Source: Candidatus Pseudoscillospira faecavium (GTDB taxonomy: Bacteria; Bacillota; Clostridia; Oscillospirales; Oscillospiraceae). Taken from it: 64,000 bases of DNA. This document shows positions 43,105-61,828 of the stretch, one piece after another. Under the pieces are notes generated by a model. The model saw only the letters and a list, made by a program, of their open reading frames with translations, did not search any database and had not been told where the DNA came from. The translations under genes were made by a program, and so were the position numbers. Each line of letters starts with the position of its first letter. Within the stretch, counting starts at the first letter, position 1. The stretch is from assembly GCA_904420565.1 (NCBI GenBank), contig CAJFVV010000016.1:1-64000 (forward strand). The letters run 5' to 3'.

Positions 43105-44058
43105 TTACGATTTTCTTTCTTTTTGCGCCGGCGCCCGGACAGGAAGCGCCAGGGTGAACGCCGTGCCCTCGTCCGGAGCGCTGTCTGCTAAAAGGGTTCC
43201 GCCCATGTGCTCAGCCAGACTTTTGGCGATGGCCAGCCCCAGGCCGCTGCCCCCCAGGGCACTGGAGCGGGAGTCCTCCTGGGTGTAAAGACGGTCAAAA
43301 ATATGGCGCAGCTTTTCCGGTGCAATCCCGGCTCCCCGGTCGCGCACGCACACCAGCGCCTGCTCCTGCTGCGTTTTCAGAGAAATGCCCAGATACCGCC
43401 CCGCGCCGCCATAGCGCAGGGCATTGGAAATCAAATTGCTCAAAATACGCCGGATGGATTCCTCGTGGCCGCAAACAAACACGTCCTTCGATGGAATGTC
43501 AATGTCCACGGTAAACTGCTGCCTGGTGAGCAGCTCATAAAATTCCACCGCTGTCTCCCGGCACAGCTCGCTCAGATTCACCGGCTCCAGGGGCAGCGCC
43601 GTATCTCCCGACTCCAGCTTGGAGAGCGTAAAAAATTTGTCTGTCAAGGTCATTACCTGCCGGGCCTTGGTCTCCACCTTTTCCAGTGCCGGCGACTCCT
43701 CCCCCCGCAGCCGGGCAATCTCCAGATAGCCCAGCATCACGGTCAGGGGCGTGCGGATGTCGTGGGAAATATTGGAGAGCATCCGCCGCTGGGACTGCTG
43801 GGCACGGCGGTAATCCACGCTCAGCCGCTGCCGGTCCGTCAAAAGCCGGTTGATCTGTTCCAAAAGAGCGATCAGCTCCCGCTCACCGGTCAGCAGCATC
43901 ACCTTTTCTCCGCTGCAGCTGTCCAAAATCCGGCGCAGCTGCTGCGCCGCGTCGCGCAATGCCCGGCGCTGAGCCCTTCGCTGCCAGGCAAGCCAAACCG
44001 CCGCGCAGCCAAAAGCCGCTGCCAGCGCCAGCACCAGCCAAAAGCGCAGCTCATTCAT
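43105..44058 (-). CDS. sensor histidine kinase
   Basis: LSNISHDIRTPLTVMLGY H-box, N and G boxes (NLISNALRYG, GSGLGLAIAKSL). Confidence 0.93.
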   Translation of the reverse strand: MNELRFWLVLALAAAFGCAAVWLAWQRRAQRRALRDAAQQLRRILDSCSGEKVMLLTGERELIALLEQINRLLTDRQRLSVDYRRAQQSQRRMLSNISHDIRTPLTVMLGYLEIARLRGEESPALEKVETKARQVMTLTDKFFTLSKLESGDTALPLEPVNLSELCRETAVEFYELLTRQQFTVDIDIPSKDVFVCGHEESIRRILSNLISNALRYGGAGRYLGISLKTQQEQALVCVRDRGAGIAPEKLRHIFDRLYTQEDSRSSALGGSGLGLAIAKSLAEHMGGTLLADSAPDEGTAFTLALPVRAPAQKERKS

Positions 44059-44758
44059 GGCCGTCCCCCAATTTATAGCCGATGCCCCACACTGTGCACA
44101 CATAGCGCGGCTGCCTGGGGTCGTCCTCCACCTTGGCACGCAGGCGGCTGATATGCACATTCACCGCATTCTCGTCGCCCAGATAGGCATCTTCCCACAC
44201 CGCGCTGTACAGCTGCGCCTTGGTATACACCCGGTTTGGATGGGCAAGCAGCAGCTGTAAAATCGCATATTCCTTGGCCGTCAGGTCGATGGGTATACCT
44301 TTTTTGCGCACACTGTGGGCAGCGCAGTCCATTTCCAGGTCGCCTGCGCGCAGCACCGGCGGTGCGGCTTCCTCCTGCCGTCCCTCGGCGCTCCAAAGGG
44401 TTGCCCTGCGCAGGTTCGCCTTGATACGCGCCAGCACCTGGGTGACGGAAAAGGGTTTTGTTACATAGTCGTCGGCCCCCAGTCCCAAGCCCAGGGTAAT
44501 ATCTGAATCGCTGTCCTTTGCAGACAGGATGATCACCGGCACGGTGCTGCCGCTCCTGCGGATGGCGCGCAGCACCTCCATGCCGCTGCGCCCGGGCAGC
44601 ATCAAATCCAGCAAAATCAAGTCAAAGGATGCCTTTTCAAAGTGAGCAAGGGCCGTTTCCCCATCGGGGGCAATCTCCACCAGAAAGCCCTCGCTGCGCA
44701 GAAAGTCCTGCAGCATCGTGCTGATCTCTCTGTCATCTTCCACCAGCAGCAATCTCAT
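44051..44758 (-). CDS. OmpR-family response regulator
   Basis: MRLLLVEDDREIS receiver plus winged helix. Confidence 0.94.
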   Translation of the reverse strand: MRLLLVEDDREISTMLQDFLRSEGFLVEIAPDGETALAHFEKASFDLILLDLMLPGRSGMEVLRAIRRSGSTVPVIILSAKDSDSDITLGLGLGADDYVTKPFSVTQVLARIKANLRRATLWSAEGRQEEAAPPVLRAGDLEMDCAAHSVRKKGIPIDLTAKEYAILQLLLAHPNRVYTKAQLYSAVWEDAYLGDENAVNVHISRLRAKVEDDPRQPRYVCTVWGIGYKLGDGHE

Positions 44759-45042
44759 GGCACAGCCTCCTTTCTCCCGTTTTTGATTCGGATGTATTCG
44801 CTTCATTGTAGCACGCGGCACCGCAAAAGAAAACCTTTCCGTTTTTCAATAACTGCCGCTTCAGCTGCAAAAGTTTCTGATCCGTTGTATAAAACCATGC
44901 AGTGGGTTTGCTGGAAGGAATGATACAATCGAGCATTTACAAAAAATTTGTACTTTTTTGAACAATCTCCGCGAGAATGTGTTATACTGAATGTGAATAC
45001 GCAAAAAAACGCCGTCCCTTCAGGGAAAGGAATTTTCGATTT

Positions 45043-49420: not shown

Positions 49421-51433
49421 TCAATATCTTGATTGCTGATGATTGGCCAGCGCACCCAAAGTTGTTTCCGCCCAACTGTAATTGGTCAGATAGCTTCCCC
49501 GAAAAAGCTGCGCATATTCTTCCTTGCCGGTCAAATAATCATACAAATCGCACTGCACCTTTTCACATACAATACGCCGTTTGCCGTCCACTGCTTCAAT
49601 AATATCCGAGATTCCATACTCTTCCAAAGTATTTTTCAATCGGAGCGCCACTTTGCGGTATCTGGACAATGTAACCGTATTAACCGGTTCGTCTTCCCAC
49701 AAAAAACTGATTGCCTCCTCAGAGGCCACATAACCACCCCTGCGGTCCACAAGCAGCGCCAGCAATTCCTTTGCCTTTTTGTTCCTGAACGCAATCGGCT
49801 TATCCCCGACAAAGACATCAAAATATCCAAATGTACGGATGGAAACCGTACGGGTCTCCGGCAGGCTGTTCGTTTCGCCCGCCCCGGCATTTTCAATGGA
49901 ATACAGCATAACGTATCTTGGAGAATTGCTGTCCGGTTCTTTTTGGGAACAAATGGCTTTGATCCGCCGCTCCGTTTCGGTTTCGTAATCAAAATATGTA
50001 AACTCTGCCTCGCCCTTGCGCAGCAGCTCCACAAAATCTTCATATTCTGCTTCGCTGTATGCCACAAAGTTTTCCAGCGGTGTCGTTTTCTGCATCAGCG
50101 GCATCCATTCCTCTTTGCTATAGCCAAAAAACGCACACACATTTTCGCTGGCATACAGAGGTTTCACCATGCCGTCGGCCGAAACCTCAAAGGCAGCCCG
50201 GCCATCGGCAAAGCGCATGACAAGCTCTTTCATATTTTCTTTCAGCCGCGTGTTTTCCGTCCGCAAAACTGCAGCCTCTTCCGCATCCGGAACTCTGCGG
50301 CAGCAGTAAAAACTGGTGGATGCATCCACCTTGATGAAAATACCGCTGTACTGCCGGTTGATACCATCTGATGATCTTGCCCAATATGTGATCTGCGGCG
50401 GTTTTGCTCCCGGCTCATGCAGCTTTTTCCCGCAAAAATCCTGAAAGAAATCACAAACGCGATCACGATCCTCAGGGGTAACCGTGTTGATAATCCATTT
50501 CTCAAATGCATCGCCAATCCGCACTGCAAGGTTTTCAAAACATTTGAAGGTTGAAGCATCGTTGCAGTGCAGGCATTTTACTGTATCCGTATCCAGATTA
50601 AATTCAAAAATTTTGTCATATACGTCGGCAAGCGCTTTTAAATACCGCTTCGTCTCTCTTTCCTGTTTCGCCCGGTGCCGCTCTGTAACGTCCAGGCAAA
50701 CACTTTGAAACTCCGCCATCCCGCGTTCATTGACGCACTTTGTCACCCAGCCGAAAATCTGGGCACGCGTGCCATCACAGCGGAGCAGCGGCATCTCGCC
50801 GGCAACAGGGGCATCCGCAGAATAAACCCGGTTCAGGTAGAGAGAAAAGCGGCGGCGCTCTTCTATGGGAATCATCAGGAAAATGTTGTTTTTATAAAAT
50901 TCCAGTTCATCCAGCGCCCCATCCTCGGCTTCCGGAAAACGGAGAATTTCCATCATCTTTTGATTGATATAAGTAATCCGCGGCTGCTTTTCGCAGGTAT
51001 ATTTCAAAAAACCGCAGGGAATCGTTTCATTCAAAAAACGCAGATTGTGATTCTCCTGTTTCAGATCCGTGATATCTGTCAGCACAGAACAGCCCACAAG
51101 GACGTCGTTGTCCAGCCTTTTAGAGGTGAACACATCCCTTACATAGCGTACAGCCCCATCTTTTGTGATCAGACGATATTCACTGGTAAGCGTCTGCTCT
51201 TCCTGCGTCAATCTGCGCAAAAAGCCGCAATACTGCCCGCGGTCAGCCGGGTGCACCAAAGAAACATACAGATCTTTGTCCTCGCAGAGCAGCTCCTCCG
51301 GACGAACACCCACCATTTTACAGAGGTTTTCACTTACATAACTCAAATGCACCGGATCATCCAAAATATATTGGTGGAACCCACTGACCTGCTCATTCAG
51401 TATATCTTCCATATGGTTCAGCATGCGATTCAT
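49421..51433 (-). CDS. PAS-domain regulator with C-terminal SARP/Trans_reg_C-type winged helix
   Basis: PAS-like repeats (YVSENLCKMVGVRPEELL; YVRDVFTSKRL); C-terminus TFGYFDVFVGDKPIAFRNKKAKELLALLVDRRGGYVASEEAISFLWEDEPVNTVTLSRYRKVALRLKNTLEEY; AAGGAG RBS. Confidence 0.8.
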   Translation of the reverse strand: MNRMLNHMEDILNEQVSGFHQYILDDPVHLSYVSENLCKMVGVRPEELLCEDKDLYVSLVHPADRGQYCGFLRRLTQEEQTLTSEYRLITKDGAVRYVRDVFTSKRLDNDVLVGCSVLTDITDLKQENHNLRFLNETIPCGFLKYTCEKQPRITYINQKMMEILRFPEAEDGALDELEFYKNNIFLMIPIEERRRFSLYLNRVYSADAPVAGEMPLLRCDGTRAQIFGWVTKCVNERGMAEFQSVCLDVTERHRAKQERETKRYLKALADVYDKIFEFNLDTDTVKCLHCNDASTFKCFENLAVRIGDAFEKWIINTVTPEDRDRVCDFFQDFCGKKLHEPGAKPPQITYWARSSDGINRQYSGIFIKVDASTSFYCCRRVPDAEEAAVLRTENTRLKENMKELVMRFADGRAAFEVSADGMVKPLYASENVCAFFGYSKEEWMPLMQKTTPLENFVAYSEAEYEDFVELLRKGEAEFTYFDYETETERRIKAICSQKEPDSNSPRYVMLYSIENAGAGETNSLPETRTVSIRTFGYFDVFVGDKPIAFRNKKAKELLALLVDRRGGYVASEEAISFLWEDEPVNTVTLSRYRKVALRLKNTLEEYGISDIIEAVDGKRRIVCEKVQCDLYDYLTGKEEYAQLFRGSYLTNYSWAETTLGALANHQQSRY

Positions 51434-51513: not shown

Positions 51514-51542
51514 ATTATACCAAACTTCCGTCTGCTTTACAA
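51514..51542 (-). promoter_or_regulatory. promoter of PAS/SARP-type regulator
   Basis: minus strand TTGTAA - 17 nt - TATAAT. Confidence 0.7.
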
Positions 51543-51552
51543 ATCCCCGCTC

Positions 51553-51978
51553 CTACTCTGCCACAGCAAAAGCCATGGCCCGGTCGGTCTCGTGAGAAAT
51601 ACTGACATGCAGGCATTCTATCCGCCGCAGCGCCGCCGCTGCTTTCGCCCCATTGTGCAGAACAACCTGCGGCTGGCCGGCTGGATCATGGTATAATTCG
51701 ATATCCAGCACCGTAAAGCCGGAAAATCCTGTCCCCAGCGCCTTGCTCACCGCCTCTTTTGCCGCCCAAATGCCGGCGGCAGTGCAGGCAGAGTGCTCCC
51801 TGCAATAGGCCTGTTCGCAGGAGGTGTACACTTTTTCAAGAAACCGCGGTTTTTCCATCAGCCTTTTCACACGACAAACGCTGACAATATCGCAGCCGAT
51901 CCCTTTGATTCCATTGCTCATAAATCGTTTTCCTTCCATGCCTTTGCCAACAAGCTGTCCCTGTTTGTGCCCTTGCAC
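51553..51978 (-). CDS. acpS: holo-ACP synthase
   Basis: GIGCDIVSVCRVKRLM, AAGIWAAKEAVSKALGTGF. Confidence 0.92.
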   Translation of the reverse strand: MQGHKQGQLVGKGMEGKRFMSNGIKGIGCDIVSVCRVKRLMEKPRFLEKVYTSCEQAYCREHSACTAAGIWAAKEAVSKALGTGFSGFTVLDIELYHDPAGQPQVVLHNGAKAAAALRRIECLHVSISHETDRAMAFAVAE

Positions 51979-52042: not shown

Positions 52043-53701
52043 TTATGTCCCCTGCTCCGCCAGCGGCTTGCGTTGGTTGCGCAAAGCGGCTCTTTTAATT
52101 TTTCCGCTGATGGTCTTCGGCAGTTCCGCCACAAATTCGATGGTGCGAATCCACTTGTATTCGGCAAGCTTTTGATTGCAGAACACCCGGATTTCCCGCT
52201 CAAGCTCTTTTGTCGGCATATGCTCCCGCTCCAGCACAACAACCGCCTTGATCGCCTGGCCCCGGAACACATCCGGCACCCCCACAACGCTGCATTCCGC
52301 AACTGCCGGATGCTCCATCAGAACATGCTCCACCTCATAGGGGCCCACACGGAAGCCGCCGGTTTTAATAATATCGTCAAAGCGCCCGCAGAACCAGTAT
52401 CGCCCGTTCTCATCCATATATGCCGCGTCACCGGTGTGATATACGCCGCCGCGCCACACATGGCGATACTGCTCTTCGTTGTCGAGATAGGCAGTGAAAA
52501 TACCGCTCTGCCGGCCATCCTCCCCCGGAATGACAACCACTTCCCCGGTTTCTCCCACAGGAACCTCTTCTCCATTTTTTCCCCGCAGCGCAATTGTGTA
52601 AAGCGGGGAAGGCGTTCCCATGGAACCTGCAACCGGTTCCTCCCCTCGAAAATTGGCCATCAGAAGCGTCGTTTCGGTTTGCCCGTATCCCTCACAAAGG
52701 GGGATCCCCGTGCGCGCCGTAAATGCGCGGAACACTTCCGGCGCCAGCATTTCTCCTGCAGTGGAGGCATGCTTCAACGTGGGCATAGCGGGAATACCTT
52801 TGCGCACAAGATAGCGGTAAACCGTAGGCGGCGCACAAAAGGAAGTCACCCCGTAGCGGTTGATGATGCGGGGAAGCTGCTTTGGTTCAAAATTGTCAAA
52901 ATCATAGACCATCACCGCGCTCCCCACAAGCCACTGGCCATACAGCTTTCCCCAGGAGGCCTTGGCCCAGCCGGTTTCCGCCACTGTAAAATGCAGCCCG
53001 TTGTCCTCAGCCTGCTGCCAGTATCTGGCAGTTACAATATGGGCCAGGGGATACGTGTGATCGTGAATCACACCTTTTGGCTGGCCGGTGGTGCCAGAGG
53101 TGAAATACAGCATCATCGGGTCCTTCGCCAGCGTCGGAACGCGCTCCAGCTCCCCATTTTTTCCTTCCATAGCAGCCGTAAGATTTTCAAAACCTTCCGC
53201 TTCTCCCTGCACACACCAGAGCTTTACCGGTAATTTTGTCTCTTTCAGCGCGGCCCGTATTTTTTCCGGCACTTCATTGCGCGCCGTGCAGACAATCGCC
53301 TGCACCTTGGACACTTTGATGCGGTAAGCCAGGTCGCTTTCCGTCAGCATGTGTGTCGCCGGTATCATCAAAGCACCGAGCTTGTGCAGCGCCACCGCCG
53401 CAAACCAGTACTCGTAGCGGCGTTTCAAAATCAACATCACGGGGCTGCCGCGGCCAATGCCGGCAGCGCGGAACACCTGCGCCATCTGATTGCTGCAGTG
53501 TTTGATTTGAGAAAAGGTAAAGGTATGTTCCTCTCCTTCCGCATTGCACCACACCAGCGCTCTTTTTTCCGGCGTTTCTTCCGCGATTTGATCGACAACA
53601 TCATATCCAAAGTTAAAGTTGTCGGGGTAATCCAGGCTCAGCTGTTTCAAATTTCCGTGCGCATCGGTGCGTTCACGACAAAATTTTCGGTATACGCTCA
53701 T
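52043..53701 (-). CDS. AMP-forming acyl-CoA synthetase (medium-chain/MACS-like)
   Basis: YFTSGTTGQPKGVIH, GYGQTETT, YWFCGRFDDIIKTGGFRVGPYEVE. Confidence 0.92.
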   Translation of the reverse strand: MSVYRKFCRERTDAHGNLKQLSLDYPDNFNFGYDVVDQIAEETPEKRALVWCNAEGEEHTFTFSQIKHCSNQMAQVFRAAGIGRGSPVMLILKRRYEYWFAAVALHKLGALMIPATHMLTESDLAYRIKVSKVQAIVCTARNEVPEKIRAALKETKLPVKLWCVQGEAEGFENLTAAMEGKNGELERVPTLAKDPMMLYFTSGTTGQPKGVIHDHTYPLAHIVTARYWQQAEDNGLHFTVAETGWAKASWGKLYGQWLVGSAVMVYDFDNFEPKQLPRIINRYGVTSFCAPPTVYRYLVRKGIPAMPTLKHASTAGEMLAPEVFRAFTARTGIPLCEGYGQTETTLLMANFRGEEPVAGSMGTPSPLYTIALRGKNGEEVPVGETGEVVVIPGEDGRQSGIFTAYLDNEEQYRHVWRGGVYHTGDAAYMDENGRYWFCGRFDDIIKTGGFRVGPYEVEHVLMEHPAVAECSVVGVPDVFRGQAIKAVVVLEREHMPTKELEREIRVFCNQKLAEYKWIRTIEFVAELPKTISGKIKRAALRNQRKPLAEQGT

Positions 53702-53713
53702 AGCATCTCCTTT

Positions 53714-54499
53714 TTATAAAATCGCGCCAGCACCGATCTTCCTGAATCGGTCATAGCGCTTTCCCACCAGATCCATATCATTGGACAGCACTTCGATTTC
53801 TTTCGCCAACAGCGCGCGAATCCGATCGTAAAACTCTTTTTTGCCGATTTCTTTTTCAGAGAGAATGCGCTCAACCACACCGAGGCTTTTGGCATCCTCT
53901 GCCGTAAGCCTAAGGCTCTGCGCTGCCGCTTCGGCTTTTGCCGCGTCTTTCCAAAGGATGCTTGCACAGCCCTCAGGGGAAATAACAGAATACACCGCGT
54001 TCTGAAGCATCCACACCCGATCTGCCACCGCAAGGGCCAATGCGCCGCCGCTGCCGCCTTCTCCCACAAGAATCGAAATCACAGGCACGCAGAGCGTGGA
54101 CAATTCCATCAGGTTTTCGGCGATCGCCTGCCCCTGTCCGCGCTCTTCCGCGCCGATGCCGCAATAGGCCCCGGAGGTGTCCACAAAACAAACGACGGGT
54201 CTGCCGAATTTTTCCGCCTGTTTCATCAGGCGCAGGGCCTTGCGGTAGCCTTCCGGGTGGGGCGCGCCGAAATTGCGCTGCACCCGCTCTTTTGCCGTGT
54301 GGCCCTTTTCCATCGCAATCACCGTCACAGGATTCCCATTCAGTCTGGCAATGCCGCCCACAATCGCCGGGTCATCCCCATAGCAGCGATCGCCGTGGCA
54401 TTCCATGAACCCTTCAAAGATGTTGCTGATATAATCCAGCCCGGTCGGCCGATGGTGGTCGCGGGCAAGCTTCACCCGTTCATACGTCGAACCCTTCAT
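53714..54499 (-). CDS. accA: acetyl-CoA carboxylase carboxyltransferase alpha
   Basis: DRCYGDDPAIVGGIARLNG, FVDTSGAYCGIGAEERGQGQAIA. Confidence 0.95.
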   Translation of the reverse strand: MKGSTYERVKLARDHHRPTGLDYISNIFEGFMECHGDRCYGDDPAIVGGIARLNGNPVTVIAMEKGHTAKERVQRNFGAPHPEGYRKALRLMKQAEKFGRPVVCFVDTSGAYCGIGAEERGQGQAIAENLMELSTLCVPVISILVGEGGSGGALALAVADRVWMLQNAVYSVISPEGCASILWKDAAKAEAAAQSLRLTAEDAKSLGVVERILSEKEIGKKEFYDRIRALLAKEIEVLSNDMDLVGKRYDRFRKIGAGAIL

Positions 54500-55356
54500 A
54501 AAATGGTCCTCCTATCGTGCATCTTCAAAAGCTCAGACAGAGCATGTCTCTGGTCTGCACGGGCAACAATGCTGTCGATAAATCCATGCTCCAACACAAA
54601 TTCCGATTTTTGAAAGCCCTTGGGAAGCGCTTTTTTGGTTGTCTGCTCAACAACCCGCGCCCCTGCAAAGCCCACTGTCGCACCGGGTTCTGCCAGAATA
54701 ATGTCTGCTTCCATTGCAAAACTGGCGGTCACGCCGCCGGTGGTGGGATCCGTCAGCACACAGACATACAGCAGCCCGGCGTCGCTGTGACGCTTGACCG
54801 CCGCGCTCGTTTTTGCCATCTGCATCAAAGACAGGAGCCCTTCCTGCATCCGGGCGCCGCCGGACACTGTGAAGCCGACCACAGGCAGACGGTGCTGCAG
54901 CGCATGCTCAAACAACAGCGTGATTTTTTCGCCCACAGCGCTGCCCATGCTGCCCATCATAAAATAGGGCTCCATAACAAACAGGCCGCACTCCTGTCCG
55001 CCGATTTTGGCCGTGCCGCACAGCACAGCTTCTTCTTCCCCGCTGGCTGCGCGCACCGTTTCCACTTTCGCCTCATATCCCGGGAAATCCAGCGGATTGC
55101 CGGATTTTACCCCCGCATACAGCTCATGGAAGCTGCCTTTATCCGCTAACATCTGAATGCGCTGACGCGCTTTCATGCGGAAGTGATACCCGCAGGGGCA
55201 AACCAGGCCGGCGGCCCAAAGCCGGCTGAGCGGGATGCTCTTGTGGCAATTGGGGCACTTCTTTTCAGGCTCGCCGTCGTCACTCTGTACCGGGGCCGCA
55301 GTGCGGCCGCCTTCTTCCAGCTTGTTTTTCGGTTTCAAAAAATTGATCAGCGCCAT
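54496..55356 (-). CDS. accD: acetyl-CoA carboxylase carboxyltransferase beta
   Basis: Zn ribbon CPNCHKSIPLSRLWAAGLVCPCGYHFRM, GGARMQEGLLSLMQMAKTS. Confidence 0.95.
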   Translation of the reverse strand: MALINFLKPKNKLEEGGRTAAPVQSDDGEPEKKCPNCHKSIPLSRLWAAGLVCPCGYHFRMKARQRIQMLADKGSFHELYAGVKSGNPLDFPGYEAKVETVRAASGEEEAVLCGTAKIGGQECGLFVMEPYFMMGSMGSAVGEKITLLFEHALQHRLPVVGFTVSGGARMQEGLLSLMQMAKTSAAVKRHSDAGLLYVCVLTDPTTGGVTASFAMEADIILAEPGATVGFAGARVVEQTTKKALPKGFQKSEFVLEHGFIDSIVARADQRHALSELLKMHDRRTIL

Positions 55357-55360
55357 TTTG

Positions 55361-56668
55361 TCACCCGTTTCCCATAAATGTCAAATCATAATTTCCGGAC
55401 GCGAAGCGCTCGTCCTCCACAATGCGCAGCTGCTCGGCAATATTGGTGGGAATGCCTTCAATCACCAATTCACACAGGGACGCGCGCATTTTTCGCAGCA
55501 TCTCCTCCCGTGTCCCGGCAAACACGACCAGTTTTCCCAGCAGCGCATCATAATACGGCGAAACCGTTGTTCCCTCAATCAGGCAGGTGTCAAAGCGCAC
55601 GGAAGGGCCTCCGGGAATATGCAGCATTTTCAGCGTTCCGCAGCTTTGCGCATTGATGCGGCACTCAAGTGCAGACCCGCTCATGCGGATCTCTTCCTGT
55701 GTGAACTGCAGAGGCACGCCCGCTGCAATGCGGATCTGCCATTTTACAAGATCGATTCCCGTCAGCATTTCCGTCACACAGTGCTCCACCTGCAGGCGGA
55801 CATTCATTTCCATAAACCAGAAATTCCCTTCCGGGTCCAGGAGGAATTCCAAGGTTCCCGCGCCCACATAGCCGATTTTTTTCACAGCCTCTGTCGCAAG
55901 GGCAATCATCCGCTTCCTCTGCGCGTCATGAACCGCCGGAGAAGGCGTTTCTTCCAGCAGCTTTTGATGCCGGCGCTGCAAGGAACAGTCACGGTCGCCA
56001 AGGCATACAACATGGCCGGATTCGTCAGCAAGCATCTGCAGCTCCACATGCCTTGCCGGGAAAATATATTTTTCAAGATAGACTCTCCCATCGCCGAAAG
56101 CGCTGGCAGCCTCAGCCGTCGCCTGCAAATAGGCTTCCTCCAGCTCCTCTTCCGCGTGAATCAGCCGGATGCCCCGGCCGCCGCCGCCAGCACAGGCCTT
56201 GAGCATCACAGGATAGCCCAACCCTGCAGCCGCACTTTTTGCCTCTTCCACAGAAGCCACGGCTTTCGTCCCCGGAATGACGGACAGCCCGGTGCCGCGG
56301 ATCAGCTCTTTGAGCGTCGCCTTGTCGCTGAGGCGCTCCATACTCTCCGGATCAGGGCCGATGAACACCAGGCCGTTTTTTCTGCACAGGCGGGCAAAAT
56401 GCGCATTTTCTGAAAGGAACCCATAGCCCGGATGGATCGCCTGTGCTCCCGCCAGCAGCGCAGCGCTGATAATCTGCTCTTCATTGAGATAACTCTCCGA
56501 GGCCTCGGGCCCGCCAATGCAATAGCTTTGATCACTGAGGGCCACATGCAGGGCGTCCTTATCTGCCTCGGAATAAACCGCCACTGTCGCAACGCCCATC
56601 TCCTTGCAGGCCCGGATAATCCGGACGGCAATTTCGCCGCGGTTGGCAATCAGTATTTTTGAAAACAT
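55361..56668 (-). CDS. accC: biotin carboxylase
   Basis: FSKILIANRGEIAVRIIRACKEMG; ATP-grasp GGGRGIRL. Confidence 0.97.
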   Translation of the reverse strand: MFSKILIANRGEIAVRIIRACKEMGVATVAVYSEADKDALHVALSDQSYCIGGPEASESYLNEEQIISAALLAGAQAIHPGYGFLSENAHFARLCRKNGLVFIGPDPESMERLSDKATLKELIRGTGLSVIPGTKAVASVEEAKSAAAGLGYPVMLKACAGGGGRGIRLIHAEEELEEAYLQATAEAASAFGDGRVYLEKYIFPARHVELQMLADESGHVVCLGDRDCSLQRRHQKLLEETPSPAVHDAQRKRMIALATEAVKKIGYVGAGTLEFLLDPEGNFWFMEMNVRLQVEHCVTEMLTGIDLVKWQIRIAAGVPLQFTQEEIRMSGSALECRINAQSCGTLKMLHIPGGPSVRFDTCLIEGTTVSPYYDALLGKLVVFAGTREEMLRKMRASLCELVIEGIPTNIAEQLRIVEDERFASGNYDLTFMGNG

Positions 56669-56671
56669 ACC

Positions 56672-57088
56672 TTACGCTCCTGTTATTGCGAAAGAAAATT
56701 CGGCCGATACACAGCATTTCCCATCTACAGTCACAGTCCCCTCGGCAAAATAAAACGGGTGCTTTGACCGCTTGATGCGGCACTGCGTTTCAACCGTATC
56801 GCCGGGGTGCACCGGCGCACGGAATTTCACCTGGTTCAAGCCCGTATAGACCGGAAGCTTCCCCGCTTCCATCGCATCCTGCATCAGCACGCAGGCAGTC
56901 TGTGCCAGAATTTCGCAGAGAATCACACCCGGCACAATGGGGTGGCCCGGAAAATGTCCCTGCAGGAAAAACTCATCTCCCCGCACAGTATAGTGGCCGA
57001 TAGCCATGCCATCGGTTTCCTCCACATCGTCCAGCAGCAGCATCTGCTCTCTGTGGGGCAGAATTTTCATAATGTCTTCCCGCTGCAT
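56672..57088 (-). CDS. fabZ: 3-hydroxyacyl-ACP dehydratase
   Basis: MKILPHREQMLLLDDV, GHFPGHPIVPGVILCEILAQTA. Confidence 0.96.
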   Translation of the reverse strand: MQREDIMKILPHREQMLLLDDVEETDGMAIGHYTVRGDEFFLQGHFPGHPIVPGVILCEILAQTACVLMQDAMEAGKLPVYTGLNQVKFRAPVHPGDTVETQCRIKRSKHPFYFAEGTVTVDGKCCVSAEFSFAITGA

Positions 57089-57092
57089 ATGC

Positions 57093-57527
57093 TCACCTCC
57101 CCATACGAAACAGCTCTGTGCCGTATTCCACCACCTGGCCGTTGGCGGCGCAAATCTCACGGATCACGCCGTCCTCTTCGGCCGTAATCTCATTCATCAG
57201 CTTCATGGCCTCAATGATGCAGAGAATCTGCCCTTTTTTCACGTGATCTCCAACAGCCACAAAGGGCGCTGCGTTTTCAGCAGGCGCAGCATAAAATACA
57301 CCCACAATCGGCGATTTTACACTGATATAATCCGCACTTTCTCCGCTGGCCGCAGCCTGCGCCCCAGGTGCGGGCGCAGGCGAGGGTGCAAAAGCGGCCG
57401 TTTCGCTTGCCGCCGCAGTACGCTCCCGCTCCAGCCGGACGGATTTGCCCTCCTCTTTGATTTCAAGCGCTGTGAGGTCAAGCTCTTTCATCAGCGTCGC
57501 GTATTTTCGGATATCAATTTCCCCCAT
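57093..57527 (-). CDS. accB: biotin carboxyl carrier protein
   Basis: Ala/Pro linker; IIEAMKLMNEI biotinylation motif. Confidence 0.96.
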   Translation of the reverse strand: MGEIDIRKYATLMKELDLTALEIKEEGKSVRLERERTAAASETAAFAPSPAPAPGAQAAASGESADYISVKSPIVGVFYAAPAENAAPFVAVGDHVKKGQILCIIEAMKLMNEITAEEDGVIREICAANGQVVEYGTELFRMGR

Positions 57528-57531
57528 AAGA

Positions 57532-58770
57532 TTACACCTTTCTAAAAGCAAGGCAGGCGTTGTGTCCTCCAAATCCCAAAGAATTGGAAAGGGCCAGCGT
57601 CAGCGCAGCCTGCGCCGCCACATTGGGCACACAATTCAAGTCGCAGGCCTCATCCTGTTCATCGAGATGGATGGTAGGCGGTGCAATGCCCTCTTCCAGT
57701 GCCAGCAAACAGGCCAGCGCTTCCACAGCCCCCGCCGCGCCGAGCATATGCCCGGTCATGGATTTCGTGGAGCTGACATAAGCCTTCTTTGCCTGCTCCT
57801 CGCCCAGCGCTTTCTTGATGGCCTTTGTTTCAATCACGTCGTTCATCGGTGTGCCGGTACCGTGGGCGTTGATGTACACAACATCCTCCTCGGTGTAGCC
57901 TGCTTCCCGCATGGCATCCATCATGGCCTGTGCGCCGCCCCGCGCCTCCGGATGGGGCGCGGTGATATGGTGCGCATCACAGGTGGCACCGTAGCCGCAG
58001 ACTTCCCCGTAAATTTTTGCTCCGCGGGCACGGGCGTGTTCATATTCTTCCAAAACCAGAGCCGCCGCACCCTCGCCGATCACAAAGCCTCTTCTGCGCC
58101 GGTCAAAGGGCATGGACGCCTCATCCGGGTTTTCTGCGGTGGACAGCGCCTTCATATTGGCAAAACCGGCCACAGCGGAGGGGGTAATCGCAGCCTCTGC
58201 CCCGCCGGTAATCACAGCATCGGCGTAGCCGTGGCGAATCAGGCGCATGGCCTCGCCGATGGCATTGGCGCCGGAGGCACAGGCGGTCACCGCAGGCATG
58301 GCCACGCCGCGGCAGTCGTGGCGAATGGCAATCATGCCCGATGCCATATTGCTGATCATCATGGGCACCAGCAGCGGAGAAACCCGGCGGGGCCCTTTTT
58401 CCATCAGCTTGGTGTGCTCCGCCTCAAAGGTGCCGATGCCGCCGATGCCCGTGCCGAACACCACGGCAAAGCGCTCCGGCGCCACAGTCCCCTGCACGCC
58501 GCTTTCCTCCACCGCCTGCTGGGCAGCCGCCACGGCAAACTGGGCATAGCGGTCCGTGCGCAGGATTTCATTTGCCTCCAGATAGTCCTTCGGGTCAAAA
58601 TTTTTGACCTGTGCTCCCAGCTTTGCCTTAAACTCCTCCGTATCAAACAGCGTAATGGGGCCGATGCCGTTTTTACCGCTTTTCAGTCCATTCCAGGTTT
58701 CGCTGACCGTATTCCCCAGGGGCGTGATCGCGCCCAGCCCGGTGACCACAACTCTTCTATTTTCACTCAT
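57532..58770 (-). CDS. fabF: beta-ketoacyl-ACP synthase II
   Basis: VVVTGLGAITPLGNT; VTACASGANAIGEA; NAHGTGTPMND; SLGFGGHNACL. Confidence 0.97.
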   Translation of the reverse strand: MSENRRVVVTGLGAITPLGNTVSETWNGLKSGKNGIGPITLFDTEEFKAKLGAQVKNFDPKDYLEANEILRTDRYAQFAVAAAQQAVEESGVQGTVAPERFAVVFGTGIGGIGTFEAEHTKLMEKGPRRVSPLLVPMMISNMASGMIAIRHDCRGVAMPAVTACASGANAIGEAMRLIRHGYADAVITGGAEAAITPSAVAGFANMKALSTAENPDEASMPFDRRRRGFVIGEGAAALVLEEYEHARARGAKIYGEVCGYGATCDAHHITAPHPEARGGAQAMMDAMREAGYTEEDVVYINAHGTGTPMNDVIETKAIKKALGEEQAKKAYVSSTKSMTGHMLGAAGAVEALACLLALEEGIAPPTIHLDEQDEACDLNCVPNVAAQAALTLALSNSLGFGGHNACLAFRKV

Positions 58771-58784
58771 TGTTTCATCTCTCC

Positions 58785-59513
58785 TCACATGGCGAGGCCG
58801 CCGTCCACGCGGAGCACTTCGCCTGTCACATAATTTGCAGCCGCAAGATATGCGACCGCCGCCGCCACATCTTCCGCCTTTCCCATGGCACCCAGGGGAA
58901 TACTTTTAAGCAGCGGATTGTCCGTCTGATCGCCGGTCATATCGGTGGCGATAAATCCGGGAGCCACTGCATTGCAGCGGATCCCTTTGGGCGCCAGTTC
59001 CTTCGCCACAGACTTGGTCAGACCGATCAGTCCCGCTTTGGAAGCAGCGTAGTTGCACTGGCCCGCATTTCCTGCCAGCCCCACAACGGAAGTGATATTG
59101 ATGATGCAGCCTTCCCGGTTGCGGATAAACAAGCCCGTGCAGTGGCGAATCATGTTGAAAGCACCTTTGAGATTGGTATCCAGCACTGCGTCATAATCCT
59201 CTTCCTTCATCATGGCCAGCAGGCCGTCACGGGTGATGCCCGCATTGTTCACCAAAAGATGCACCGTGCCAAAATCCGCCCTGATCTGCGCCACCGTCTC
59301 CTTAACGGCTGCAAAATCCGCCACATTGCACTGATAAGCCTTTGCCTCCACGCCGTATTCCTGCGTGCAGGCTGCGCACACCTGTTCTGCAGCCGCCGTA
59401 TTGCCGGCATAGATCACAGCCACCTGAGCGCCCAGGGAAGCCAGCTTTTTTGCAATGGCTGCACCGATTCCCCGGGATCCCCCCGTTACAATTGCTGTTT
59501 TTCCGTTTAACAT
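58785..59513 (-). CDS. fabG: 3-oxoacyl-ACP reductase
   Basis: TGGSRGIGAAIA; NNAGITRDGLL; NYAASKAGLIGLTKS. Confidence 0.96.
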   Translation of the reverse strand: MLNGKTAIVTGGSRGIGAAIAKKLASLGAQVAVIYAGNTAAAEQVCAACTQEYGVEAKAYQCNVADFAAVKETVAQIRADFGTVHLLVNNAGITRDGLLAMMKEEDYDAVLDTNLKGAFNMIRHCTGLFIRNREGCIINITSVVGLAGNAGQCNYAASKAGLIGLTKSVAKELAPKGIRCNAVAPGFIATDMTGDQTDNPLLKSIPLGAMGKAEDVAAAVAYLAAANYVTGEVLRVDGGLAM

Positions 59514-60406
59514 ACTCCCACCTCAGTCAAATAGTCCGAATAACTCCGCGCGCTGACCGCTGCGTCAATTTTTCTGACCATATTGGTCAGCGTTTTTCCG
59601 GGGCCGATCTCAACAAAGGTGTCCACACCGCCGGCAATCATATTGCGAATGGTCTGTTCCCACTGCACCGGGCTGCAGATCTGCCGGGAAAGCAGCGCCC
59701 GGGCATCTTCCGTATAAGGCTGTGCTGTCACATTGGAATAGAGCACCGCCGTTGTCTCCCGCAATTCCGCGCTTTCAAGCTCCCGGGCAAAGGCATCTGC
59801 CGCTTCCTGCATAAACGGCGAGTGGAACGCCGCCTTGACTTTCAATGGAAGCGCCCTGCCTCCCGCCGCCTTCACATCGGCGGAAAATTCCTGCATCTGT
59901 GCGCTCAGGCCGGAAACCGTAATCTGCCCGGGGCAGTTGTAATTCACAGGATAGACCTGGGGATACTTGCTGCAAAGCTGCTGCACCTGCTCGGGCGACA
60001 GCTTGACCACTGCCGCCATGGCGGTGTCAAACTGCTCTGCCGCCTGCTGCATCAGCGCGCCGCGCCGGCACACCAGGCGAAAGCCCGTTTCCCGGTCAAA
60101 CAGGCCGCCAACCGTGGCGGCCACCACTTCCCCCAGGGAAAAACCCGCAACAGCATCCGGCACAATTCCCTTTTCCAGCAGCACCGATGCCGCTGCCAGC
60201 TCCATGGCAAACAGGCATGGCTGTGTGTTTTTTGTTTCTTTTAATTCCGCTTCCGTGCCCGCAAAGCATTGTTCCGATGTGCCGGGCCGCAGTGTGTCGC
60301 ACAGCGCAAACGCCTGCGCCGCCGCAGGATAATTTTCGGCCAGTTCCTTTCCCATGCCGGGATACTGATCGCCCTGGCCGGAAAAAATAAATGCTATTTT
60401 ACCCAT
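59507..60406 (-). CDS. fabD: malonyl-CoA:ACP transacylase
   Basis: FSGQGDQYPGMGKEL; GFSLGEVVA. Confidence 0.95.
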   Translation of the reverse strand: MGKIAFIFSGQGDQYPGMGKELAENYPAAAQAFALCDTLRPGTSEQCFAGTEAELKETKNTQPCLFAMELAAASVLLEKGIVPDAVAGFSLGEVVAATVGGLFDRETGFRLVCRRGALMQQAAEQFDTAMAAVVKLSPEQVQQLCSKYPQVYPVNYNCPGQITVSGLSAQMQEFSADVKAAGGRALPLKVKAAFHSPFMQEAADAFARELESAELRETTAVLYSNVTAQPYTEDARALLSRQICSPVQWEQTIRNMIAGGVDTFVEIGPGKTLTNMVRKIDAAVSARSYSDYLTEVGVC

Positions 60407-61338
60407 TGTGACGCCCCTTTCAGGATGGGCTCCGCCTCATCCATCAGTTCTTTGACAATTTCTGCGGCGTGCTGCTCCTTTTTCACCATGGCCGCCGCCT
60501 GACCCGCGAGGAAACATCCCTTTTCATTGTCGCCTTCCTGCACGGCACGCTGCAGCGCGCCGGTGGCCAGCGATTCCAGTTCCTCATCTTCCATGCCGCC
60601 GTATTCCGCTTTGGCGTAGTCCCTGGCAAAGGGGGTGCGCAGGCTGCGCACAGGGTGGCCCAACCGTTTGCCCGTCACCATAGTGCACAAATCCGTCGCC
60701 TTCAGAATTTTTTCTTTATAAACCGGGTGGATCGTGCATTCCACGGCACTGAGAAAGCGCGTGCCCAGCTGCACGCCGCAGGCGCCCAGCATAAATGCGG
60801 CCGCAACGCCTCTTCCGTCTGCAATGCCGCCGGCGGCAATAACCGGCAGCGATGTGGCATCACAAATCTGCGGCACCAGAACCATGGTCGTCAGCTCGCC
60901 CACATGGCCGCCGCTTTCGCCGCCCTCTGCAATCAGGGCAGAAGCCCCCAGGCGCGTCATTTTTTTGGCCAGCGCCACCGACGCCACCACCGGAATCACC
61001 CGGATGCCGGCGGCAATCCAGTCCTTCATATATTTAGCGGGATTACCGGCCCCCGTGGTAACCACTTCCACTCTTTCTTCTGTGACAACAGCCGCCACTT
61101 CGTCGGCAAAGGGGCTGAGCAGCATGATATTGACGCCGATGGGCTCCCGGGTAATGCTCCTGGCAATCCGAATCTGCTCTCTTACATAAGCTCCCGGAGC
61201 ATTGCCCGCCGCAATGATGCCAAGGCCGCCGCCATTGGATACGGCAGCGGCCAGTTTTCCATCAGCGATCCAGGCCATGCCGCCCTGAAACACCGGATAG
61301 CGAATACCCAGCATTTCACAAATTGCTGAGCGAATCAT
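60394..61338 (-). CDS. fabK: enoyl-ACP reductase II
   Basis: YPVFQGGMAWIADGKLAAAVSNGGGLGIIAAGN; EGGESGGHVGELTT. Confidence 0.95.
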   Translation of the reverse strand: MIRSAICEMLGIRYPVFQGGMAWIADGKLAAAVSNGGGLGIIAAGNAPGAYVREQIRIARSITREPIGVNIMLLSPFADEVAAVVTEERVEVVTTGAGNPAKYMKDWIAAGIRVIPVVASVALAKKMTRLGASALIAEGGESGGHVGELTTMVLVPQICDATSLPVIAAGGIADGRGVAAAFMLGACGVQLGTRFLSAVECTIHPVYKEKILKATDLCTMVTGKRLGHPVRSLRTPFARDYAKAEYGGMEDEELESLATGALQRAVQEGDNEKGCFLAGQAAAMVKKEQHAAEIVKELMDEAEPILKGASQWVK

Positions 61339-61342
61339 GGCA

Positions 61343-61585
61343 TTACCCCTGCTTGCTCTGGATAAACTTATCCAAATCGTCGATGGTTTCCACCTTCTGA
61401 TCCAATTCAATCTCGATGCCGATCTCGTCCTCGAGATTCATCAGCAGCTCCACGGTATCCAAAGAGTCAATGCCCAGCTCAGAGAATTTGCTTTCAGGTT
61501 TAATGGTGGAAACATCACAGCCTGTGCGCTCCGCAACAATTTTCGCAATCGCATTAAAATACATTTTTTCTGCCTCCAAATTCAT
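61343..61585 (-). CDS. acpP: acyl carrier protein
   Basis: FSELGIDSLDTVELLMNLEDE. Confidence 0.97.
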   Translation of the reverse strand: MNLEAEKMYFNAIAKIVAERTGCDVSTIKPESKFSELGIDSLDTVELLMNLEDEIGIEIELDQKVETIDDLDKFIQSKQG

Positions 61586-61620
61586 TTTTCAGCGGTTTTA
61601 ATCCGCTCATATCGGCCTTT

Positions 61621-61626
61621 ATTATA
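61621..61626 (-). promoter_or_regulatory. -10 element of the fatty-acid operon
   Basis: minus-strand TATAAT 36 nt upstream of the acpP ATG; no good -35. Confidence 0.6.
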
Positions 61627-61635
61627 GCGGCGCGC

Positions 61636-61665
61636 TGTTCCCGAAATAGTCCCGCAGTGTTCCCG
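61636..61665 (-). promoter_or_regulatory. three direct repeats with 11-bp period (candidate SARP-type operator)
   Basis: minus strand CGGGAACA-CTG-CGGGACTA-TTT-CGGGAACA, starts at 61665, 61654, 61643; 9 nt before TATAAT. Confidence 0.6.
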
Positions 61666-61828
61666 CTGCGTTCCTTATTTTGTTAAATAATTATGAACTT
61701 CCCGTCTTTCTCCGTTCGTCCAAGCTGCGCATTCAGCAAAAATAACAGTTTTTATTTTATATTTTTCTGAATAGTTGTGCAAAGCGCCGTCTTCTGAACC
61801 ATGCCGTTTATTTTCATGCGTCGCAGAA

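Follow-up and report, generated by a model that had tools for sequence, protein, structure and literature searches.

An 11-bp GGAAC array upstream of acpP as the predicted operator of a SARP-like PAS regulator of clostridial fatty-acid synthesis

The window, a stretch of 64,000 nt from Candidatus Pseudoscillospira faecavium, carries on its minus strand a fatty-acid-synthesis operon, an array of direct repeats ahead of the first gene, and the gene for a PAS-domain regulator, P0001 (Table 1). Nearly all carriers of this regulator share the gene order acpP-fabK-fabD-fabG-fabF-accB-fabZ-accC-accD-accA-acyl-CoA synthetase-regulator; in L071-L073 and L111 the regulator gene is divergent from acpP. 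A Lachnospiraceae subgroup (L095-L099, L103) has both regulator and array, with a cluster that is without fabD and all acc genes.

Table 1. Features of the operon, the upstream array and the regulator gene. Promoter positions are numbered by setting TATAAT at -12 to -7.
Feature	Position	Strand	Basis or remark
acpP, acyl carrier protein, first operon gene	61343..61564	-	sequence
fabK	60394..61338	-	sequence
fabD	59507..60406	-	sequence
fabG	58785..59513	-	sequence
fabF	57532..58770	-	genome's only FabF above the family cut-off
accB, fabZ, accC, accD, accA	53714..57572	-	sequence
MbcS/AcsM-like acyl-CoA synthetase	52043..53701	-	conserved operon member
acpS-like holo-ACP synthase	51553..51978	-	named from sequence; so placed in few relatives only
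Array unit 1, GGAAC	61670..61674	-	about -60 to -56; invariant in 37/37 distinct promoters
Array unit 2, GGAAC	61659..61663	-	about -49 to -45; exact in 36/37
Array unit 3, GGACT	61648..61652	-	about -38 to -34, the place of a -35 box
Array unit 4, GGAAC	61637..61641	-	about -27 to -23; invariant in 37/37
-10 element TATAAT	61621..61626	-	10 nt past the unit 4 core; 10 or 11 nt in all relatives
Regulator gene promoter, sigma-70-type TTGTAA-17-TATAAT	51514..51542	-	sequence
Regulator P0001, 670 aa	49421..51433	-	N-terminal PAS domain (Pfam), C-terminal DNA-binding domain
C-terminal SARP-type DNA-binding domain	49448..49855	-	OmpR-type winged helix and first helices of a BTA-like domain

The FabF of this operon is the only one above the family cut-off in 20 of 21 regulator-positive genomes; G106, where the operon is split between contigs, has no FabF above the cut-off. 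FabH falls below its family cut-off in all regulator-carrying genomes of the set. Because the operon carries an MbcS/AcsM-like acyl-CoA synthetase, we speculate that synthesis is primed by activated short-chain acids or by malonyl-ACP decarboxylation. In two assemblies of the window's genus, G001 and G002 (86% and 78% complete), no FabK and no true FabF were found, and these organisms may lack FAS-II altogether.

Upstream of acpP, the minus strand reads AAGGAACGCAG CGGGAACACTG CGGGACTATTT CGGGAACAGCGCGCCGC TATAAT. Divided by unit (61674-61621), it consists of GGAACGCAGCG, GGAACACTGCG, GGACTATTTCG and GGAAC-agcgcgccgc-TATAAT, that is, of four 11-bp units whose natural phase begins with GGAAC, GGAAC, GGACT and GGAAC at 61674, 61663, 61652 and 61641. 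The preliminary description, whose minus-strand sequence matches the DNA exactly, had seen three repeats spaced by 11 bp; the spacing is right, but a fourth unit farther upstream, GGAACGCAGCG at 61674-61664, had been missed. Its repeat consensus, CGGGAACA, needs narrowing as well, the conserved core being GGAAC and the leading CG varying among genomes. It had also placed the start of acpP about 36 nt downstream, at an in-frame ATG (61585) that lies before the ribosome-binding site. The likely start is at 61564 (ATGTATTTT), 56 nt after TATAAT and with GGAGG just upstream.

Full-length relatives of P0001 occur in 20 of the 396 genomes of the order, its own genome included, and named GTDB genomes contribute 40 loci. 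These named carriers are nearly all Lachnospiraceae, Oscillospiraceae and other Clostridia, together with one MAG labelled Actinomycetes. MAG carriers belong to Lachnospiraceae, Oscillospiraceae, Ruminococcus and Christensenellaceae, the isolates include Mediterraneibacter agrestimuris DSM 111629, 'Sarcina' sp. DSM 11001 and Lachnospiraceae bacterium G41, and most of the genomes compared are MAGs. The carriers come from the gut and rumen and are scattered among the clostridia. It had been argued beforehand that the repeats should persist wherever relatives keep both regulator and operon, and they do: the array precedes acpP in 39 of 39 distinct, long-enough upstream sequences from genomes with the PAS regulator, the only other one retrieved (L102, outside the 39) ending at a contig end. 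Two further intact arrays precede acpP on separate contigs in G106 and G158. The pattern GGAAC-N6-GGAAC-N17-GGAAC is present in 37 distinct acpP promoters, one of them with AGAAC as unit 2; L067 and L078 have an array with one base less between units 2 and 4. Unit 4 is followed by the -10 element after 10 nt in 27 promoters and after 11 nt in 10. Unit 3 is degenerate in most genomes, with an exact GGAAC in L070-L073, so that a SARP box of two adjacent units beside the -10 element is not the conserved feature.

Among the 37 promoters, pairwise identity is 39% between the cores and 34% in a 44-nt flank, as against 99.6% in the three cores, a value that is partly given by construction because the promoters were chosen by the core pattern. 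The informative measures are the presence of the array in all 39 upstream sequences and the divergence around its cores. Because the three-core pattern arose in 0 of 74,000 shuffles of the acpP upstream sequences, is unique in its own genome, and keeps its cores invariant in relatives while the flanks vary, we do not regard the array as a product of chance. As regulator and operon are linked, their co-occurrence with the array does not amount to 39 independent events, and conservation alone cannot separate an operator from repeats that were co-inherited with the regulator yet kept for another cause, such as DNA curvature, an UP-like element or shared descent. We consider such a cause highly improbable: the flanks have diverged to background and the cores have not, and the array recurs at unrelated loci beside paralogous regulators, as described below. 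It is also retained in the clade L071-L073, where the regulator is divergent from acpP.

A search of 43 genomes, with one mismatch allowed, points to a single target. Of 21 regulator-positive genomes, 19 have a single exact copy of the array, located at acpP; the 22 regulator-negative genomes have none. The two exceptions are G285, which has the one-base-shorter spacing, and G295, whose operon start lies off the retrieved stretch. In the window's own genome, GGAACN6GGAAC alone turns up, outside acpP, about as often as chance predicts, and for this reason we claim no wider regulon; in the fab clade, no array accompanies the promoter of the regulator gene. The uniqueness of the array in the genome suggests that the regulator is dedicated to the one FAS-II operon. 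When the array is combined with a 10-nt gap and TAWAAT, it matches 10 of the 396 genomes, of which nine are regulator-positive and the tenth is G358. There (L154, 9700-10170), six consecutive 11-bp units and TATAAT stand directly before a decayed fabK fragment, which runs into what appear to be the last regulator residues, YSWGEVTLSGL. No FabF was found in the G358 genome, and from its sequence the locus looks like the fossil of a deleted FAS-II operon.

The array lies where a -35 element would be expected. The absence of a usable -35, noted previously for the window, extends to its relatives, as none of the 37 promoters agrees with TTGACA, at 16-18 nt, in more than 3 of its 6 positions. Their mean TTGACA match is below that of shuffles, the fixed cores filling part of that region. 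Units 3 and 4 start at about -38 and -27 and cover the missing -35 region, the position expected for SARPs, as had been proposed; units 1 and 2 start at about -60 and -49. Just past the presumed transcription start, the 5'-UTR holds an inverted repeat, AGCGG-ATTAAAA-CCGCT (61591..61607, minus strand). Most relatives have similar stem-loops of different sequence (mean z about -1.9 over 37), and it is possible that this structure is a 5'-end stabiliser or a further control element.

GGAAC is also a common -35 core of ECF sigma factors, with a spacing of about 16-17 nt to an ECF-type -10 element, and the array could be read as such a -35. We reject this candidate, which has scarcely any likelihood: GGAAC is separated by 10-11 nt instead of 16-17 from a TATAAT of sigma-A-like form, and its three or four copies keep a strict 11-bp register.

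The missing -35 also bears on the direction of control. The classical fab regulators of Firmicutes, FapR and FabT, likewise govern FAS-II operons, and they are repressors with palindromic boxes. With this precedent, and with an array that overlaps the whole -35/spacer region, the regulator could bind the units between -60 and -23 and block RNA polymerase. We consider repression of this kind unlikely, because 11-bp direct repeats and a SARP-type fold are features of activators, and because the -35 is absent in all relatives with the array, whereas four acpP promoters of regulator-less relatives have TTGAC[AGT] at 16-17 nt, as fits dependence on an activator. The regulator gene, too, has an ordinary sigma-70-type promoter of its own in the window and in many relatives. 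It is this difference between -35-less array promoters on one side and, on the other, the -35-bearing promoters of acpP without the regulator and of the regulator itself that favours activation. FapR, which our search detected in control genomes including Bacillus subtilis, was above cut-off in 0 of 24 genomes, and no palindromic box of the FapR or FabT type is conserved at the array, in keeping with the preliminary description, which had noticed no FabT- or FapR-like box.

P0001 has no N-terminal receiver domain, and Pfam and NCBIfam recognise PAS domains only. A full-length model (pLDDT 77, pTM 0.35), adequate for counting PAS-like folds and inadequate for naming a ligand, contains about four of them, and in the PDB it resembles generic PAS sensors, DosP and FixL among them. 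The AF2 model of the DNA-binding domain (pLDDT 95.8) aligns along its full length with EmbR and AfsR (TM 0.72-0.75, E about 5e-6), and these two proteins account for all six PDB hits at E below 0.001. Plain PhoB-type domains align over about 85 columns with TM about 0.49. A profile built from 44 sequences of the domain likewise finds EmbR (E=0.002) and AfsR (E=0.004), and Pfam gives the domain a Trans_reg_C match only, below threshold. Behind the winged helix, the model has only three short helices and not a complete bacterial transcriptional activation domain; there was no BTAD Pfam match in the 44 domain members.

SARP operators are direct repeats 11 or 22 bp apart that cover the -35, with the 3' repeat about 8 bp from the -10 (PMC10936776), and the array has this geometry. 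Model and profile also agree in giving P0001 the OmpR-type winged helix of the SARP fold. SARPs carry this domain N-terminally, whereas in P0001 it is C-terminal, behind the PAS domains; they are also described as exclusive to actinobacteria, where they activate antibiotic clusters (PMC10972967), and the host here is not actinobacterial. Going by the model, P0001 is SARP-like and not a canonical SARP by the family definition. The earlier idea of a SARP-like activator thus holds for the fold, with EmbR and AfsR closest, and for the position of the array, but membership in the SARP family itself does not hold, given the C-terminal domain and truncated BTA.

Comparison with known systems sharpens this picture. 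On the afsS promoter of Streptomyces coelicolor, two AfsR protomers occupy repeats at -40 to -30 and -29 to -19 and give sigma region 4 a dock that replaces the -35 (PMC10936776). AfsR shares with P0001 an OmpR-type DNA-binding domain followed by a BTA-like start, and its afs box shares with our array the 11-bp direct repeats over the -35, a similar distance to the -10 and a poor -35. It differs in having two repeats, CGTT(T/C)ATCGNN (core from PMC10972967), rather than four GGAAC units, and in its N-terminal SARP domain, full seven-helix BTA and NOD/TPR, where P0001 has a C-terminal domain, a BTA stub and multiple PAS domains. AfsR is a Streptomyces protein, whereas P0001 belongs to Clostridia and to primary metabolism. 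PimR, which cooperatively binds three heptameric direct repeats in 11-bp register as monomers, shares the single target promoter (pimM), but its operator lies off the -35, its core is CGGCAAG, its architecture is SARP-LAL and its target is an antibiotic cluster (PMC5930380). EmbR of Mycobacterium tuberculosis (PDB 2FF4/2FEZ), the best structural match of the DNA-binding domain, is actinobacterial and, unlike P0001, has an FHA sensor, a full BTA domain and other target genes.

The domain is also found with a different sensor. A search with the C-terminal domain returned, besides the fab regulators, four PAS-GGDEF-sensor proteins with 56-59% identical domains (L158 364-11109, L187, L188 and L200, in G058, G126, G359 and G145). 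In G058 and G126, GGTAC/GGCAC-GGAAC-GGAAC-GGAAT, 10 nt and TATACT follow just downstream of the PAS-GGDEF regulator gene, and in G058 this array precedes a gene cluster that encodes a signal peptidase and a surface protein of 2011 aa. G359 has GGAAC at 0 and +33, two weak middle units, 10 nt and TATAAT downstream of the gene, ahead of a SipW-like signal-peptidase gene. In G145, a GGAAC array (0, 11, 33), 11 nt and TATAAT lie upstream of the PAS-GGDEF regulator gene itself. Three lineages (G058/G126, G359 and G145) therefore pair the domain with the array at unrelated genes, which ties the array to this DNA-binding-domain subfamily. In the loci examined, distant domain relatives with other recognition helices have no GGAAC array. 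These observations speak against a further reading, in which a PhoB/OmpR-type response regulator binds the array. Direct repeats at 11-bp spacing are also targets of winged-helix response regulators, and the window encodes such a protein at 44051-44821. From genome to genome, however, the array accompanies the PAS regulator; it is found again next to PAS-GGDEF paralogs that share the DNA-binding domain, and it does not adjoin the domain's distant relatives in the loci examined. We give this reading very little probability.

We propose, with good confidence, that the four-unit array is the operator of the PAS regulator, which would activate a sigma-A acpP promoter that has a good -10 and no -35. 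Binding of the array by the regulator's domain is, from sequence, very likely, and activation of the acpP promoter likely; these steps, as well as the contact with sigma and gating by the PAS domains, are what we infer. The C-terminal SARP-like domains would occupy neighbouring GGAAC units along one face of the DNA. Units 3 and 4 would occupy the places of AfsR's two repeats on the afsS promoter, and units 1 and 2, which lengthen the array by 22 bp upstream, would probably take up two more protomers. The bound domains probably replace the -35 contact and dock sigma region 4 in the manner of AfsR, although the full BTA domain through which AfsR contacts RNAP is only partly present in P0001. The regulator, expressed from its own ordinary promoter, would be gated by its PAS domains.

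More tentatively, and a little short of what we would call probable, these proteins may form a clostridial family of SARP-type activators, each with one target and a shortened activation domain, whose sensors are exchangeable: multi-PAS where the sole FAS-II operon is controlled and PAS-GGDEF at SipW/surface-protein operons. By sigma adaptation, they would drive sigma-A promoters that have no -35 from an array of four GGAAC units. A FabH-independent FAS-II, and with it the synthesis of membrane lipids in these gut bacteria, would then be switched on by a PAS-sensed signal and not repressed by FapR or FabT. In the open-access papers searched, we found nothing relevant on the control of Firmicutes fatty-acid genes by SARP or PAS regulators. 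The sole fatty-acid-synthesis operon of various gut and rumen clostridia appears to be run by a SARP-like domain, and this is a predicted means by which Clostridia that lack FapR regulate the synthesis of their membrane lipids. The DNA code, GGAAC every 11 bp and 10-11 nt before a -10, finds further regulator-target pairs, and it makes for an operator that is recognisable and testable in cultured strains.
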